Below are positions 26,680 to 34,010 of a stretch of DNA of 64,000 bases, one piece after another. Positions within the stretch are counted from its first letter, which is position 1, and every line of letters begins with the position of its first letter. The stretch spans positions 248,001 to 312,000 of the forward strand of contig NZ_CP103807.1 in the NCBI RefSeq assembly GCF_029773605.1, given 5' to 3'. The DNA comes from Actinobacillus genomosp. 2 (GTDB taxonomy: Bacteria > Pseudomonadota > Gammaproteobacteria > Enterobacterales > Pasteurellaceae). Made by a program: the position numbers and the translations under genes. The notes under the pieces are model-generated. The model was not told the origin of the DNA. It made no database searches and worked only from the letters and a program-made list of their open reading frames with translations.

Positions 26680-28176
26680 ATGGAATTTAGTGTTAAAAAC
26701 GGTAGTGTTGAAAAACAGCGTACAGCGTGTTTAGTTGTCGGTGTCTATGAGCCTCGACGTTTATCGGGGGCGGCGGAGCAACTGGATAAATTAAGTGAAG
26801 GCTATATTAGTGCTTTATTACGCCGTGGTGATTTAGACGGTAAAGCAGGGCAAACCTTGTTATTGCATAATGTACCAAATGTGCCTGCCGATAGAGTTTT
26901 ATTAGTCGGTTGCGGAAAAGAAAGAGAATTGACTGAACGTCAATATAAGCAAATTATTCAAAAAATGGTGCAAACCATTAATGAAACCGGCTCAATGGAA
27001 GCGGTCTGTTTTTTAACCGAATTACATGTTAAAGCTCGTTCAAGTTATTGGAACGTCCGTTTTGCGATTGAAGCGATTCAAGAGAGTTTATATGCCTATA
27101 ATGATTTCAAGAGCATTAAACCGGAAGTACGTCGCGAGTTACGCCGTGTGATTTTCAATGTTGCTAATCGTAAAGATTTATTAGAGGCAGAAAGAGCGTT
27201 GGAACACGGAAAAGCAATCGCAACTGGTGTCGCGTTTGCAAAAAATGTCGCAAATTGTCCACCTAATGTATGTAATCCGGCTTATCTTGCTGAATTAGCG
27301 AAAGGTTTAGCGAGCGAGTATGAAACGATTAAAACCACTGTGATCGATGAAGCGGAAATGGAAAAATTAGGTATGGGCGCTTATTTAGCCGTATCTCGAG
27401 GCTCTCATAATCCGGCATATTTATCTGTTATTGAATATCGTAATCATCCGAATCCGGATGCGAAACCAATCGTTTTAGTAGGTAAGGGACTGACATTTGA
27501 CTCCGGCGGTATTTCAATTAAGCCGTCCGAAGCGATGGATGAAATGAAATACGATATGGGCGGAGCCGCTTCGGTTTACGGTACGATGAAAGCGTTGGCG
27601 GAAATGAAATTACCTCTAAATGTCATCGGTGTGTTAGCCGGTTGTGAAAATATGCCGGACGGTAATGCCTATCGACCGGGCGATATTCTGACAACGATGA
27701 ACGGTTTAACCGTTGAAGTATTGAATACCGATGCGGAAGGCCGATTAGTTTTATGTGATACATTAACTTATGTAGAACGTTTTGAACCGGAATTAGTGAT
27801 TGATGTGGCGACTTTAACCGGCGCTTGTATGATTGCACTTGGTGCTCACAATAGCGGATTAATGTCGACCAGTAATATGCTGGCAAACGATTTATTAAAT
27901 GCAGCGGAACAAGCGGATGATAAAGCATGGCGTTTACCGTTAGGCGAAGAATATCAAGAACAGCTTAAATCAAATTTTGCGGATCTCGCTAATATTGGCG
28001 GACGTTTAGGCGGAGCGATTACCGCGGGTCAATTCTTATCTAACTTCACCAAAAAATATACTTGGGCACATTTAGATATTGCTGGTACAGCTTGGAAATC
28101 CGGTGCGGCAAAAGGCGCAACCGGCAGACCTGTTTCATTATTTAGTCAATTTTTAATTAATAAAGCGAGTAATTAG
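26680..28176 (+). CDS. pepA: Leucyl aminopeptidase PepA
   Basis: A cytosolic M17 metallo-aminopeptidase; in E. coli the hexamer also binds DNA (Xer recombination, carAB control). The 498-aa protein has the catalytic motif [18 protein letters not shown] (metal ligands Lys and Asp) and the signature NTDAEGRL. The N-terminal domain (1-160) is the DNA-binding and interaction part. AGGAG lies before the ATG. The gene stands alone with a strong terminator behind it. Confidence 0.96.
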
Positions 28177-28207
28177 GTTAAGCGGTTAATTTTACTCAAA
28201 AATTTAC

Positions 28208-28241
28208 AAGCCCTCAGGTAGTGATGCCTGAGGGCTTTATT
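28208..28241. terminator. Bidirectional terminator between pepA and queE
   Basis: AAGCCCTCAGG / CCTGAGGGCTT, an 11-bp GC-rich stem with an 8-base loop followed by TTATT. It serves converging pepA and queE. Confidence 0.9.
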
Positions 28242-28251
28242 ATAAACAAAC

Positions 28252-28884
28252 TTATTCAATACCGACCAATTTGTGAGTTTGTAAACTCAATTGCCATTTG
28301 GGTTTATTGGCTCGTTGATTCAAAATACCAAGTTGGGTGATGGTTTCCAATAAATTCATTTTGCCGTCCACTTCGCAAGGAGAAAGGTAGTAATGTTCAG
28401 CGGTAATTTGTGTCTCGATTTGTTCACAAAAACCTTGTACATCGCCTTTATCCATCACGATACGAACTTCGTTGGCAAATGGAATACATTCTCTCAAATA
28501 TTTCTCTTGATACATCAGTTTCGGGCTAGTAGCGATATAATCAATCTGTTTCGGCACGGCTTTTAAGCCGTTTGTTTCAATTGTTAGCCAATAACCTTCT
28601 GCTTTAAACACATCGAGCAATACGCTTAAATTGGCATACATAGTAGGCTCACCACCGGTAATGATAATATTCTTAGCGGAATAAGATTTTACTCGTTCAA
28701 GAATTTTCGCCATGCTCCATTTTTCGTATTCGTTATAGTTGGTATCGCACCACGGGCAAGCCAGATTACATTTGCCTAAACGCACGAAAATACAGGGTAA
28801 GCCAGTATTAAAGCCTTCACCTTGCAGGCTTTCAAAAATTTCGACAATCGGGAAAGCTGTTGTCGTCAAAATAGTATTTGTCAT
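28252..28884 (-). CDS. queE: 7-carboxy-7-deazaguanine synthase QueE
   Basis: A radical SAM enzyme that contracts 6-carboxy-tetrahydropterin to 7-carboxy-7-deazaguanine for queuosine. The cluster motif is CNLACPWCDTNYNE (three cysteines of CX3CX2C), preceded by FESLQGEGFNTG. The SAM-binding GGEPT follows at about residue 78. Length is 210 aa, normal for the family. It is the last gene of queC-queD-queE. Confidence 0.93.
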   Translation of the reverse strand: MTNTILTTTAFPIVEIFESLQGEGFNTGLPCIFVRLGKCNLACPWCDTNYNEYEKWSMAKILERVKSYSAKNIIITGGEPTMYANLSVLLDVFKAEGYWLTIETNGLKAVPKQIDYIATSPKLMYQEKYLRECIPFANEVRIVMDKGDVQGFCEQIETQITAEHYYLSPCEVDGKMNLLETITQLGILNQRANKPKWQLSLQTHKLVGIE

Positions 28885-28975
28885 AATTTTTACAAATCTC
28901 TCCTAACCCCTCTTTACTAAAGAGGGGAATATCGGGGTTAAGATTTATGCTCTATATTTATTTAGATGGGAATGT

Positions 28976-29398
28976 TTAACGAGAATATTCACAATATGAG
29001 GTTGGTGTTTCCCAAAGACGAATTAAACTGACCGGTAAACCGACTTTTTCCAGCTTTTCAAACATATATTTCGCCATTTCTTCCGCTGTCGTACGGCTTG
29101 GAATACCGTAAACTTTAGAGTTTAAATCGATTAACAGTTTGGCAACTTGACTTTCTCTGTCGCTATTTAAATCGTAGATATAGGCATGATCCATCGGGTC
29201 TAAGATTTCACGTTTTACCACCGATTTTAAATCGGAATAATCCATCACCATACCTCGTTTCGCTCCCTCGGCAACTAAGTTACCGCTCACTTCCACCTGA
29301 AGTTTATAAGTATGTCCGTGTAAGTTTTGGCATTTGCCGTCGTGCCCATCGAGCATATGTGCCATATCGAAACTAAATTCTTTTGCAATTTTAAACAT
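28976..29398 (-). CDS. queD: 6-carboxy-5,6,7,8-tetrahydropterin synthase QueD
   Basis: QueD turns dihydroneopterin triphosphate into 6-carboxy-tetrahydropterin. The 140-aa T-fold protein has zinc-binding histidines in DMAHML and LHGHTY and the catalytic Cys in GKCQNLHGH. DYSDLK and LDHAY-like (MDHAYIYDL) motifs also fit. Middle gene of the queuosine operon, about 95 bases after queC and 91 before queE; both gaps contain small hairpins. Confidence 0.93.
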   Translation of the reverse strand: MFKIAKEFSFDMAHMLDGHDGKCQNLHGHTYKLQVEVSGNLVAEGAKRGMVMDYSDLKSVVKREILDPMDHAYIYDLNSDRESQVAKLLIDLNSKVYGIPSRTTAEEMAKYMFEKLEKVGLPVSLIRLWETPTSYCEYSR

Positions 29399-29492
29399 TT
29401 TTTGACCGCTTGTTTTAGGTTATGACCTAGCACGAAACCTCGTACTAGGTTAAAGATAAGTCAGCCACGTTGTGGCTAGAATAAGATAATGT

Positions 29493-30149
29493 TTACTGAT
29501 TATTTTTTTCAGCAAGGTACTCGTTAAGCCCTTTTTCACGTAATACGCAGCTTGGACAAGTGTGACAACCGCCTTCCACACCTAAATAGCAAGTATGGGT
29601 ATGCTGTCTGATATAGTCGAACGCACCGAGTTTATCGGCTAATTCCCATGTCTGTTTTTTAGTCAGGTACATCAGTGGCGTACGAATGTTGAAGTTATAA
29701 TCCATTGCCAGATTTAAGGTGACATTCATTGATTTCACGAACACATCTCGGCAGTCCGGATAGCCGCTAAAGTCGGTTTCACATACACCGGTAAAAATAG
29801 TTTGGATACCTTGTCCTTTGGCATAAATAGCGGTGTAGAGTAAAAACAGTGCATTACGACCGTCAACAAAGGTATTCGGCGTATTGCCTTCTTGCTTAAT
29901 TTCACGTTCTTCCATCATTGCGTTGGATGTGATAGCTTTGATCACGGAAGTATCAATCAGCGTTTGTTTAACGCCGAGATCTTTGGCGATCCAAGCTGCT
30001 TTTTCCAGCTCGATTGCGTGGCGTTGTCCATATTGAAAGGTAACCACTTCAACATTTTCCACATCAAATTCTTGAATGGCTTGGAAAAGGCAAGTGGTGG
30101 AGTCTTGCCCGCCGGAAAAAATCACGACGGCTTTTGGAGTTGAATTCAT
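29493..30149 (-). CDS. queC: 7-cyano-7-deazaguanine synthase QueC
   Basis: QueC makes preQ0 from 7-carboxy-7-deazaguanine, ammonia and ATP. The PP-loop [10 protein letters not shown] is at the N-terminus (residues 11-20) and the zinc-binding cluster CHTCPSC lies near residue 195, preceded by CYLGVEGG. It is the first gene of the operon, and a preQ1-type riboswitch covers its leader, with the ribosome site inside the conserved tail. Confidence 0.94.
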
Positions 30150-30154
30150 TTTGT

Positions 30155-30211
30155 ATCCTTAGTTTTGGTTTCAAAGATAGTCTTTGGCGTGGGAGGTTTT
30201 CGAACCACGAG
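30155..30211 (-). promoter_or_regulatory. PreQ1-type (class I) riboswitch with an extra hairpin
   Basis: On the minus strand a 5-bp stem CGTGG / CCACG (30209-30205, 30192-30188) encloses the loop TTCGAAAACCTC, matching the GGTTC...AC.CC pattern of preQ1-I aptamers. The conserved A-rich tail AAAACTAAGGA (30167-30157) follows, with AAGGA serving as ribosome site of queC. Between stem and tail is an additional 6-bp hairpin CAAAGA-CTA-TCTTTG, absent from the minimal aptamer. The position in front of queuosine synthesis genes fits feedback by preQ1. Confidence 0.75.
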
Positions 30212-30341
30212 AAAGAATAAGCGGTCTGAATTTGCAAGTTTTTTGCAAAAATAGACCGCCTTTAAGACGATATTATAATGATTTTTGTTGGAATCGCTAT
30301 TTTCTTTGCAATTCTTTCTAATTTCTTAATATTTGATTCTT

Positions 30342-30357
30342 CCGCAAACGTTTGCTT
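30342..30357. promoter_or_regulatory. PurR box upstream of purM
   Basis: CCGCAAACGTTTGCTT, 14 identical bases with the purT operator. It lies about 55 bases before purM. Confidence 0.88.
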
Positions 30358-30409
30358 GTGCTATAATCCACCTGTTTTTTGTTATCACTCAGTTTGTCGA
30401 GGTTAAATT

Positions 30410-31447
30410 GTGAGCAATACACAACTCAGTTATAAAGATGCCGGCGTTGATATTCACGCAGGTAATGAATTAGTCGAACGTATTAAAGGCGATGTAAAAC
30501 GTACTCGCCGTCCTGAAGTTATGGGCGGTTTAGGTGGTTTCGGTGCATTATGTGCATTGCCAACTAAATATAAAGAGCCGATTTTAGTGTCAGGTACAGA
30601 TGGTGTTGGTACTAAATTACGTTTAGCGATTGACCTCAACAAACACGACACCATCGGTCAAGATTTAGTCGCAATGTGTGTAAATGATTTAGTGGTACAA
30701 GGTGCAGAACCTTTGTTCTTCTTAGATTATTATGCAACCGGTAAATTAGAAGTTGATGTTGCGGCAGACGTAATTAAAGGTATCGCAGACGGCTGTGAAA
30801 TCTCAGGTTGTGCTTTAGTTGGCGGTGAAACGGCAGAAATGCCGGGTATGTACCACGAGGGTGACTATGATTTAGCCGGTTTCTGTGTCGGCGTGGTAGA
30901 AAAATCTGAGATTATTGACGGTTCTGCTGTAAAAGCCGGAGATACATTAATCGCATTAGGCTCAAGCGGCCCACACTCAAACGGTTATTCATTAATCCGT
31001 AAAGTGATTGAAGTTAGCGGTGCAAATCCGGCCACAGATACTTTAGATGGTAAATTATTAAGCGAGCATTTACTCGCACCAACAAAAATCTATGTGAAAT
31101 CCGTACTTCAATTAATTAAACAGGCCGATGTTCACGCAATCGCTCATTTAACCGGTGGCGGTTTCTGGGAAAATATTCCACGTGTGCTTCCTGCAACCAC
31201 AAAAGCAGTCATTGATGAAAAATCATGGGAATGGCCGGCGGCATTTAAATGGTTACAAGAAAAAGGCAATATCAGCCGTTATGAAATGTATCGTACTTTC
31301 AACTGTGGTGTTGGTATGGTCATCGCTTTACCGGAAAAAGATGTTGAAACTGCATTAGCCGTATTAAAACAAGCAGGCGAAAATGCTTGGGTAATCGGTA
31401 AAATTGAAAACTTAGGTGATGGTTCAGAGCAAGTTGAAATTATCTAG
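30410..31447 (+). CDS. purM: Phosphoribosylformylglycinamidine cyclo-ligase PurM
   Basis: AIR synthetase of purine biosynthesis. 345 aa, starting with GTG at 30410 after GAGG, to read [21 protein letters not shown]. Family motifs: [33 protein letters not shown] and [13 protein letters not shown]. No purN follows directly; a terminator does. Control by PurR is suggested by the upstream box. Confidence 0.96.
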
Positions 31448-31469
31448 TTTACAAAAAAATTAAAAAATC

Positions 31470-31505
31470 AAACCGCTTGTGGCTTAGGCTGTAAGCGGTT
31501 TTTTG
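31470..31505 (+). terminator. Terminator after purM
   Basis: AAACCGCTT / AAGCGGTTT with a 13-base loop and a T-run. An almost identical copy ends the EamA transporter gene at 33976-34010. Confidence 0.85.
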
Positions 31506-31533
31506 CAATCATTTTATCTAGTACATTTATTCT

Positions 31534-32922
31534 CTAGCTTTTATGATTTAACTTATAAGTGTGTAACCAATCAATAAATTCTTTATCGGTTCGGGTTACA
31601 TTTAAGCGTAAGTAGGTAGAAAAATCAGAATGTTGAGAGAATAAATATCCCGGAGCTAATAAAAAAACTTCCTTACTTGCTTCTAGTGCCATCTTCGTTG
31701 TATCTAGATATGTATTAATCCATAAAAATATCCCAATATTGCTTTCTTTTGGGTATTCAATTCCAATCTCTTCTAATTCTTTTTTTAGATACTCATGTTT
31801 TTTAGTTAATTTAATTTTCATTTCCTCAATATGTTTTTTATATTGAGGATGAAGCCAAATTTTATGGATCGCTCTTTCGGTTAATTCTGTACTTGTCATA
31901 TTAGATAGCATTTTTTGTTTGAGTATGGGCTGCAGAAAATTTTGAGGAACGCATAAAAAACCGACTCTCCAATTTGCTCCAAGTATTTTAGATACTCCTG
32001 TAACATAAAAAACGCGTTCTAATTGATCTAAAGAGGCATAGCGTAATGTTTTTCTGGAATCCTCTAAATGGCTGTAAACATCATCCTCTAATAAGTAGGC
32101 ATTATATTTATGTAGTAAACTTAATACTTTGTACATTATGGATGGTGAAATATTATAAGATGTGGGATTATTTAGAATACTATTTGTAATATATAATTTA
32201 GGCTTATACTTTTGAAAGAAACTTTCTAATTGTTCTATATTTGGTCCATTGCTATCTCTCTCTACACTTACCACTTTAATATTTAATTGATGTAGACAGC
32301 CTAATAACCAAAACCAACTAGGATCATCAACAATAACATAATCGCCTTCTCTCACGACTTCTCTTAATACTGTCTGTATAGCCGAAGAAACGCCTGGCAT
32401 TGTAATGACCGTATTTGGGTTTATATTTATACCTATATTATCTAATTGTGTGGAAAATAATTCTCGTAAGGGTTGGTAACCTTGAATATGCCCATATGAA
32501 TAAATAAAATTATGAGCTTCTTTAGCTGATTTTCTGATTGCATTTGAAATAATCTCTGCATCAATGAGCCACTCATCCGGCAATAATCCACTTCCTGAGG
32601 CTTTATTTTTGGGAAGTTCGCTAAATAGATGGCTCATTAGCCAGCCGGTATCATTAACATTATTAATCAAAGTAGGGGCTAAATTTATCTCAGGCAAAGC
32701 ACATTGCTTTTCACAAACAAAAAATCCTGAGCCGCTTACCGATTTGATATATCCCATTGATACTAATAAATCATATCCTTGAGCTACGGAAAATGTAGAT
32801 ATATCTAATTTTTGAGCTAATTGGCGAATCGAAGGAATTTTTTGCCTAGGTAAATAAATATTTCGTTCAATTTTATCTATTACCCATTCACAAACCTCTT
32901 GAACTCTTGTTTTTTTCTTCAT
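31534..32922 (-). CDS. MocR/PdxR-type regulator (GntR helix-turn-helix plus aminotransferase-like domain)
   Basis: A 462-aa protein. Residues 1-75 form a GntR-type winged helix (KIPSIRQLAQKLDISTFSVAQGYDLL). The rest is a fold-type I aminotransferase-like domain with the PLP lysine expected in YVTGVSKILGANWRVGF, and VDDPSWFW and LLEDDVYSHL matching the cofactor pocket. MocR proteins sense amino-acid or vitamin B6-related compounds. It is divergent from an EamA transporter, its probable target. It is most like the YdcR subgroup, but the effector cannot be told from sequence. Confidence 0.88.
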   Translation of the reverse strand: MKKKTRVQEVCEWVIDKIERNIYLPRQKIPSIRQLAQKLDISTFSVAQGYDLLVSMGYIKSVSGSGFFVCEKQCALPEINLAPTLINNVNDTGWLMSHLFSELPKNKASGSGLLPDEWLIDAEIISNAIRKSAKEAHNFIYSYGHIQGYQPLRELFSTQLDNIGININPNTVITMPGVSSAIQTVLREVVREGDYVIVDDPSWFWLLGCLHQLNIKVVSVERDSNGPNIEQLESFFQKYKPKLYITNSILNNPTSYNISPSIMYKVLSLLHKYNAYLLEDDVYSHLEDSRKTLRYASLDQLERVFYVTGVSKILGANWRVGFLCVPQNFLQPILKQKMLSNMTSTELTERAIHKIWLHPQYKKHIEEMKIKLTKKHEYLKKELEEIGIEYPKESNIGIFLWINTYLDTTKMALEASKEVFLLAPGYLFSQHSDFSTYLRLNVTRTDKEFIDWLHTYKLNHKS

Positions 32923-32940
32923 GCGTTAATCCATTTGAAA

Positions 32941-32994
32941 TTGTATAGAAAAATCTCCTATACAGTTATTTTTTATATGTACTGATTGTATAGG
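32941..32994. promoter_or_regulatory. Putative operators of the MocR regulator
   Basis: TTGTATAG (32941-32948) and CTATACAG (32958-32965) form an inverted pair; TTGTATAGG recurs at 32986-32994. Repeated TGTATAG words in the divergent promoter gap are typical of MocR targets. Confidence 0.55.
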
Positions 32995-33104
32995 TCATAA
33001 GTTGATTTTATTCAGTATAGTAAACAAGTATCAACAACATCTTAAAGCAATATAGGAACACACTGTATTACTTAAATCAGAAAATCAAATTATAAGAGGA
33101 TAAA

Positions 33105-33953
33105 ATGAATCGTTATATATTATTTGTATTATTATCAATTTGTTGTTTAGCGTTAGGTGGTATTTTTGTTAAGTTAAGCCAATTCCCGCCAATAACAACA
33201 GGAATGTACAGAGTGTTATTTTCTCTACCTATATTTTTTATGCTATCTAAATATAGTAGTAATGAGTATAAAATGTGCTTGTCAGAAAATATTATTGCTA
33301 TTTTTGCAGGAGCTTTTTTAGCACTAGACCTCATTTTATGGAATATTTCTTTTTCATATACAACGGTAGCAAATGCAAACTTGTTAGCAAATTTAGTTCC
33401 ATTTACAGTTGTGCCTATTTTATATTTTATTTATAAAGAGAAAGTATCAAAAGATTTTTTAATAGGTGGTGGAGTTATTTTGGTCGGTATTTTTGTATTG
33501 ATGAGTGGAAAAATTAATCCGATGCCTGAAAATTTCAAGGGTGATGGACTAGCAATATTAACATCTATATTTTATGGGTTGTTTATTGTTACTGTATATA
33601 AACTTAGAAGTAAAATTTCTACAATTCACTTAATGAGTTATGCCAGTATAGGATGTCTAATTGTACTCTTGCCTGCATCTTTATTATTAGAAGGAATTTA
33701 TATTCCCTATACATTTAGTGATTTTTACCCCTTAATTGGTTTAGCATTATTATCCCAAATTTTAGGGCAGGGGGGGCTGAGCTATTGTTTAGGAAAGATT
33801 AAGGCGAGTTACGCATCGCTGTTAGTATTAACTCAGCCGATTATTTCTGCGATATATGCTTATTTCATTTTTGATGAAAACCTTTCATTAAAAGAGATTG
33901 TTGGTATTTTGGTAGTTCTTATTGGCTTATATATAGCAAATAAGAAAAAGTGA
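33105..33953 (+). CDS. EamA/DMT family transporter
   Basis: A 282-aa inner-membrane protein with about ten transmembrane helices in two EamA repeats. It starts MNRYILFVLLSICCLALGGIFVKLS; the second repeat ends ASLLVLTQPIISAIYAYFIFDE, then the typical LSLKEIVGILVVLIGLYIANKKK. AGAGGA precedes the ATG. Members export metabolites or take up amino acids and vitamins. The divergent MocR regulator suggests an amino-acid or B6-type substrate, which is an inference. Confidence 0.85.
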   Translation: MNRYILFVLLSICCLALGGIFVKLSQFPPITTGMYRVLFSLPIFFMLSKYSSNEYKMCLSENIIAIFAGAFLALDLILWNISFSYTTVANANLLANLVPFTVVPILYFIYKEKVSKDFLIGGGVILVGIFVLMSGKINPMPENFKGDGLAILTSIFYGLFIVTVYKLRSKISTIHLMSYASIGCLIVLLPASLLLEGIYIPYTFSDFYPLIGLALLSQILGQGGLSYCLGKIKASYASLLVLTQPIISAIYAYFIFDENLSLKEIVGILVVLIGLYIANKKK

Positions 33954-33975
33954 TTTGTAAAAAACTAAAGAAATC

Positions 33976-34010
33976 AAACCGCTTGTGGCTTAGGCTATAA
34001 GCGGTTTTTT
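33976..34010 (+). terminator. Terminator after the EamA transporter
   Basis: AAACCGCTT / AAGCGGTTT hairpin with T-run; near-duplicate of the purM terminator, differing by one base in the loop. Confidence 0.85.

Follow-up and report, generated by a model that had tools for sequence, protein, structure and literature searches.

The leader of queC in Actinobacillus genomosp. 2 raises the question of what a self-closed hairpin is doing inside an apparent preQ1-I riboswitch. The locus lies in a 64,000-nucleotide stretch of contig NZ_CP103807.1 (positions 248,001 to 312,000 of the forward strand), which we refer to in full as the window and from whose first letter all window coordinates are counted. 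The original prediction, made from the letters alone, described a preQ1-I aptamer with an additional 6-bp stem at 30172-30186. It gave no strand, and our analysis places the stem at exactly these coordinates on the minus strand. The parts of the leader, and the genes that follow it, are:

30214-30153, minus strand: preQ1-I riboswitch, class I type I (RF00522), directly 5′ of queC-queD-queE
30188-30209, minus strand: P1 stem-loop of the preQ1-I aptamer (from the RF00522 alignment and coordinates)
30209-30205, minus strand: 5′ strand of P1, CGUGG
30204-30193, minus strand: 12-nt P1 loop, UUCGAAAACCUC
30192-30188, minus strand: 3′ strand of P1, CCACG
30187, minus strand: single unpaired C between P1 and the hairpin
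30186-30172, minus strand: inserted L3 hairpin, CAAAGA/CUA/UCUUUG, 6 bp with loop CUA (two-sided changes in relatives)
30156-30171, minus strand: L3 and pseudoknot tail (RF00522 alignment; tail common to relatives)
30171-30167, minus strand: linker AAACC (position taken directly from the sequence)
30166-30156, minus strand: tail AAAACUAAGGA, comprising the A-rich strand, the C/U equivalent to C31/U32, and the Shine-Dalgarno sequence
30160-30156, minus strand: Shine-Dalgarno AAGGA within the tail
29493-30149, minus strand: queC, 7-cyano-7-deazaguanine synthase, 218 aa (Pfam QueC, E 3.2e-73; TIGR00364, 257.6 bits, cut-off 150.3)
28976-29398, minus strand: queD, 6-carboxytetrahydropterin synthase, 140 aa (TIGR03367, 107.5 bits, cut-off 89.25)
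28252-28884, minus strand: queE, 7-carboxy-7-deazaguanine synthase, 210 aa (TIGR04322, E 1.1e-29, 103.4 bits, below the 200-bit cut-off)

Read on the minus strand (30209-30156, then queC), the leader thus runs CGUGG-UUCGAAAACCUC-CCACG-C-CAAAGA-CUA-UCUUUG-AAACC-AAAACUAAGGA-UACAAA-AUG. Run against the PreQ1 covariance models, as had been proposed with the original prediction, it matched RF00522 across all 45 model positions with 28.8 bits (E 0.008; 6 kb searched against 4,227 Rfam families), but this lies under the family's gathering score of 39 bits, with 17 nt treated as an insertion. It is nonetheless the top RF00522 match in the genome, the runner-up scoring 17.4 bits; compact relatives found 5′ of queC score up to 58.1. 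RF01054, the class II model, had no match in 28000-34000 at E values up to 5, and matches to AaHKsRNA82, MIR6459, MicC, and His_leader near the site fell far under their gathering scores and were taken as chance. The letters from GGUUCG through the end of P1 are the same in nine genomes of the window's genus, and the loop and tail contain letters that are invariant among 16 aligned rows.

The review of Kiliushik et al. defines type I aptamers by UC ahead of the 3′ strand of P1, UU after its 5′ strand, and a tail with a conserved C (PMC11625349). All of these letters are present in the window (U30204 and U30203, U30194 and C30193, C30162), and the aptamer stands in the gene context used for type I assignment, ahead of queC-queD-queE. 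The type I-III consensus is reportedly that of McCown 2014. The ligand-recognition bases of the Carnobacterium antarcticum structure, as given in an excerpt of its description, are U6, U7, U16, C17, A30, and C31 (PMC8752633); by our mapping these correspond to U30204, U30203, U30194, C30193, A30163, and C30162. Structure position 10 is C in C. antarcticum and A in the window, and the review excerpt describes the G34-C10 pair as dispensable for regulation (PMC11625349). L3 is usually plain and A-rich in type I, whereas that of the window holds the hairpin; we found no source that calls a plain L3 defining. The predicted preQ1-I aptamer is supported by its sub-threshold RF00522 match, its gene context, and its type I contact bases. 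By analogy with the type I structure, as excerpted, the window RNA would be expected to bind two stacked preQ1 molecules and to form a pseudoknot in which the tail docks in the P1 loop (PMC8752633).

The AUG of queC begins at 30149, with AAGGA 6 nt upstream. Because the Shine-Dalgarno sequence stands so close to the start codon with no terminator between, translational control is the natural reading, as had been predicted from the position of the ribosome site in the tail; control of queC by the aptamer is supported by its position. Transcription attenuation was dropped, since only six bases, without a U run, separate the aptamer from the AUG. Further upstream, a weak terminator-like site (30271-30255) is no more than shuffles lead one to expect (one found, versus 0.8 expected). 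The gaps between queC and queD and between queD and queE are 94 and 91 nt. By position, queD and queE are probably under riboswitch control as well, and it is on these positional grounds that the predicted control of queCDE is supported; queC and queD are identified by Pfam and NCBIfam models, and the best queE matches are below cut-off. Beyond queE, a stem, GCCCTCAG...CTGAGGGC, followed by a T-rich stretch (window about 28210-28243), lies between a 498-aa open reading frame (26680-28176, plus strand) and queE (minus strand), and is likely a terminator shared by the two. The weak His_leader and MicC alignments fall on this stem.

Taken by itself, the 21-nt insert of the window folds with -4.0 kcal/mol, compared with -0.3 ± 0.8 in dinucleotide shuffles (p 0.008 and 0.006 in two runs). 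The stability of the whole 73-nt leader is unremarkable (z -0.81; 36 of 200 shuffles equal or better), so the weight of the case for the hairpin falls on its relatives. In the minimum-energy fold of the leader, the linker CC forms two base pairs with the Shine-Dalgarno GG, a pairing that is missing from the centroid; the two strands of the hairpin are predicted to form no pairs with the tail.

A hairpin occupies this position in Actinobacillus, H. ducreyi, H. sputorum, Rodentibacter, genus g35, relatives of Oligella and Pelistega, and Neisseriaceae. The gene downstream is queC, queF, or one for a preQ0/preQ1 transporter. The larger subtype that had been predicted is thus supported, in several bacterial groups and more widely than suggested. 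Across 140 Pasteurellaceae genomes, RF00522 returned mostly matches of 44-47 nt; matches of 62-75 nt came from the window's genus (eight genomes), from g35 (six), and from H. sputorum, and all 15 of these genomes have a hairpin at the same place. We built a model, R1, from a 16-row MAFFT alignment (A1) whose structure we chose from that alignment. R1 matched 92 of the 140 Pasteurellaceae genomes and found true long forms (at least 57 nt) in 21 (G000-G008, G069, G070, G072 with a decayed copy, G105-G110, G117, G120, and G126), among them all nine searched genomes of the window's genus. Another two long matches, one in G061 and one elsewhere in G005, were rejected as false, having no aptamer or que gene. 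In the Oligella family, 11 of 268 genomes matched (nine long forms, two compact only); in the Neisseria family, 76 of 83 did, with a place of at least 54 nt in 21, of which 19 also list a compact place. Matches in Bacilli (68 of 398 genomes, 72 places) were all compact, 40-44 nt. The search of the window's class matched 3 of 369 genomes, namely the window's own, G1151 (compact), and G1040 (a 60-nt form before queF), and that of the order of Neisseria 17 of 359, with a long form only in G316, which had come up before. These R1 counts are lower bounds, because the stricter filters applied to large sets lose weak matches. At the 21 long-form Pasteurellaceae places, RF00522 matched 16, all below the gathering score, and left five unreported under stricter filters; searched directly at six long-form loci of other families, it had no match at that threshold.

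Individual loci add to this variety. One long form lies before a preQ0/preQ1 transporter gene identified by NCBIfam (L197), and another before a gene that resembles it (L204); three stand before queF, which NCBIfam identifies for L200 and L221 and resemblance for L211. Oligella ureolytica DSM 18253 has two queC copies (L128, L131), each with its own L3 hairpin of differing length and sequence.

The stems are unrelated in sequence between genera, as are the loops, yet the stems pair. The strands are CAAAGA/UCUUUG in Actinobacillus, CUAGUCAA/UUGACUAG in H. sputorum, AAAAGC/GCUUUU in H. ducreyi, GGUUAU/AUAACC in Pelistega, and CGUUC/GAACG and CGCUC/GAGCG in Oligella. In g35, GAACAA/UUGUUC is found in four of six species and, with one mismatch, in a fifth; the sixth has an 11-bp stem, GGGCAAAUAAA/UUUAUUUGCCC. 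Compensatory change in the stem, proposed as a check of the original prediction, is accordingly found between genera and families but not within Actinobacillus, where the stem barely varies (A. vicugnae is short of one pair) and the loop does. In A1, 95.8% of hairpin cells are paired, with two-sided changes at 6/6 pairs; for the whole structure the figure is 97.7%, versus 38-51% when the structure is slid and a mean of 69.3% in shuffles, none of 500 reaching as high. As many pairs with two-sided changes (eight) occurred in 32 of 500 shuffles, and as many pair types in 2 of 500. A second alignment, A2, comprises 53 matches from 52 loci (51 distinct) aligned to R1, all kept, and leans towards R1 because it was fitted to that model. 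Its hairpin is 91.2% paired, again with two-sided changes at 6/6 pairs, and P1 is 98.4% paired, with such changes at 4/5; the whole structure is 94.6% paired versus 31-47% slid, with the two-sided count reached by 3 of 500 shuffles and the pair-type count by 51 of 500. These A2 counts retain L166 and L167, which we judged false (no aptamer, no que gene), and a short second L180 row that is the tail of the same element. Folded singly, 39 of 47 distinct A2 inserts reached p<0.05, these 47 having been picked by the hairpin-holding model R1; one more was too short, and three rows were unparsed.

A structure-blind pattern, in which some loop and tail letters are fixed with any 12-42 nt between, identified 20 of the 140 Pasteurellaceae genomes (17 true long forms and 3 compact ones with a chance tail) and 13 of the 83 Neisseriaceae genomes. 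The reversed pattern, used as a control, gave 6 and 13 matches in the same sets, so match number alone proves little in Neisseriaceae. There, each of the 14 separate pattern places is also an R1 place, and those whose surroundings were retrieved stand ahead of que genes or the transporter gene. The compact forms L231-L233 of genus g2, with a chance AAAACUA downstream, were dropped, reducing 29 distinct inserts to 28. Of these, 25 reached p<0.05 (500 shuffles each), with a mean z of -3.4; the exceptions are H. ducreyi L235 (0.114), L244 (0.066), and L247, which does not fold. Given relatedness within genera, the 28 inserts are not 28 independent cases.

Both junctions of the hairpin are fixed. 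It starts 0-1 nt past P1 in 25 of the 28 inserts, against 36% of shuffled inserts that fold, and it ends 4-5 nt ahead of AAAACUA in 24 of the 28, against 17%. Even the 108-nt insert of L180 (G367, Oligella family, 1570-1427) is one long hairpin with the usual two junctions, and several Neisseriaceae inserts measure 37-43 nt. The strand behind the hairpin reads AAAYC-AAAAC: AAAACUA is found in 50 of 53 A2 rows and is preceded by AAAUC or AAACC in 29 of the 50, with close variants in most others. Compact switches mostly have an A tract instead (GCAAAAAA before ACUA in 34 of 69 parsed), but those before queC in Neisseriaceae have about the same 9 nt, as UUACC- or AUACC-AAAAC, which argues that the hairpin was added ahead of a complete L3. 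The expectation that pairing of the tail with the loop must accommodate the extra stem did not hold up: no special accommodation is needed, because the hairpin is self-closed and an L3 of full length follows it.

We placed compact and long forms on a QueC gene tree of 117 rows, a quick IQ-TREE run with 43 of its 114 inner branches open. Of 143 rows, it omits L192 and 25 QueC rows for which no switch was recognized upstream. Labels were carried by 115 rows, L210 (47 nt, no hairpin) and L180 being unlabeled; L081 (compact) and L177 (long) were labeled by hand. The distribution takes at least nine changes, versus 29-41 in 100 label shufflings, gain and loss being indistinguishable in this count. 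Taken together with the unrelated stems, the changes on the tree make repeated gain of hairpins the simpler reading.

From these observations, we propose that the leader represses queC translation as a preQ1 riboswitch of class I, type I, and that its hairpin tunes folding of the pseudoknot, a reading to which we assign a probability of roughly 0.8. Plentiful preQ1 would turn down translation of queC and probably that of queD and queE too. Two stacked ligand molecules, as expected for type I, would lie between P1 and the pseudoknot, and docking of the CUAAGGA tail in the P1 loop would hinder ribosome access to AAGGA, as in studied members; we infer ligand binding, its stoichiometry, and repression by analogy with these. 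The hairpin would abut P1, one nucleotide away in the window, and be followed by the full-length L3 (AAAYC-AAAA) along the P1 minor groove; because L3 can still take this course, the ligand pocket should be unchanged. By analogy with P4 of class II, the hairpin may stack on or beside P1, shorten the effective loop, and so tune the rate or stability of pseudoknot folding.

Against this reading stand the sub-threshold Rfam score, the unremarkable stability of the whole leader, the less striking of the covariation measures (32 of 500 shuffles for two-sided pairs in A1, 51 of 500 for pair types in A2), and the fact that most relatives do without the hairpin, the long form being present in 21 of 140 Pasteurellaceae genomes and in none of the 72 Bacilli matches. 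Such patchiness, with its nine or more changes on the QueC tree and its closely related compact forms (including Rodentibacter L085, which groups with long ones), would also be expected if the riboswitch works and the hairpin is a tolerated passenger. The P1/L3 boundary would then accept self-closed DNA palindromes, such as uptake repeats, harmlessly, and pairing would be kept only because unpaired inserts damage the pseudoknot. The hairpin of L199 (G466, Neisseriaceae, 667-741) does hold GCTGCCTGAA, which we take to be part of the uptake dialect AG-simDUS, so that a riboswitch helix there overlaps a DNA uptake word; those of L196 and L202 hold TCAGACGG (spotted by eye), presumably eight letters, in reverse complement, from the uptake word common in Neisseria. 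Uptake sequences were rejected as a general source of hairpins, however: of four full words tested, a match was found in L199 only, leaving 52 of 53 A2 rows without any. Moreover, all nine searched genomes of the window's genus keep the hairpin, with a loop that varies and a stem that is constant but for one lost pair in a single species, and the AAAYC linker recurs across unrelated lineages. We therefore regard a mere passenger as unlikely, though it is the alternative we take most seriously. Just 5′ of the window aptamer, an inverted repeat, GCGGTCT...AGACCGC (30221-30259), resembles what we take to be the Pasteurellaceae uptake core, AAGCGGT, and GACCGC or ACCGC words lie upstream of the aptamer in many relatives.

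It is improbable that the hairpin instead serves as a regulatory element of its own, whether a protein or RNase site or part of an alternative fold competing with the pseudoknot. The largest inserts (108 nt in L180, 37-43 nt in several Neisseriaceae) could house a second function, but the genera have no stem or loop sequence in common, which argues against one conserved protein site, and of the strands in the window only the linker CC pairs, weakly, with the tail. Least probable is a decayed or chance aptamer without function. The Rfam score is sub-threshold, and one long copy elsewhere is clearly decayed; set against this, the type I key bases of the window are intact, the identity from GGUUCG to the end of P1 extends over nine genomes of the genus, and the aptamer sits directly on the queC ribosome site. 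The decayed copy, L162 (G072, 977-1037), has an H. sputorum-like hairpin and an altered tail; the queC match that follows it is partial, with 51 aligned codons and no ATG inside 40 nt. G072 also has a compact preQ1-I copy elsewhere.

How does the preferred form, a riboswitch with a tuning hairpin, compare with described preQ1 riboswitches? With type I members of RF00522 (C. antarcticum, H. influenzae, N. gonorrhoeae), the window leader has in common P1, a 12-nt UU...UC loop, the tail AAAACUAAGGA with its Shine-Dalgarno sequence, and the queC context; it differs by the self-closed L3 hairpin at the P1 boundary and by AAAYC-AAAA where most compact forms found here have an unbroken A tract, although compact Neisseriaceae queC switches have UUACC- or AUACC-AAAA. 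Class I types II and III likewise have an H-type pseudoknot and an A-rich L3, but carry AC, not UC, before the 3′ strand of P1, and the review excerpt describes no such L3 hairpin for them (PMC11625349). Class II (RF01054) has another fold (HLout) and consensus and is confined to Bacillota; it would have in common with the window the preQ1 ligand, a pseudoknot, translational control, and an extra hairpin, P4, without direct ligand readout. P4 is orthogonal to the helical stack, whereas the window hairpin directly follows P1; according to the same excerpt, deletion of P4 has a minor effect on binding, yet P4 is important for kinetics (PMC11625349). The titles and abstract openings listed in searches of the preQ1 riboswitch literature report no L3 hairpin for class I. 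As far as the searched literature shows, the hairpin-bearing L3 is a new form of the known preQ1-I riboswitch.

More tentatively, and with odds we would place somewhat short of even, the P1/L3 boundary may be an evolutionary port into which unrelated self-closed helices, here as small as a 4-bp stem and as large as the 108-nt insert, have repeatedly been plugged. Stacking with P1, they would set the kinetics or the two-ligand cooperativity of the switch, in convergence with P4 of class II; such a port, if real, would have been overlooked because the Rfam model scores hairpin-bearing members below threshold. The long forms expose a gap in annotation, as they score below the RF00522 gathering score or go unreported. 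Minimal ligand-sensing RNAs have a model in the preQ1-I aptamer, and the compact and hairpin-bearing switches found before the same gene, some of them in closely related species, form a natural series in which the effects of a peripheral helix could be tested; such a test would bear on folding and on cooperative two-ligand sensing.
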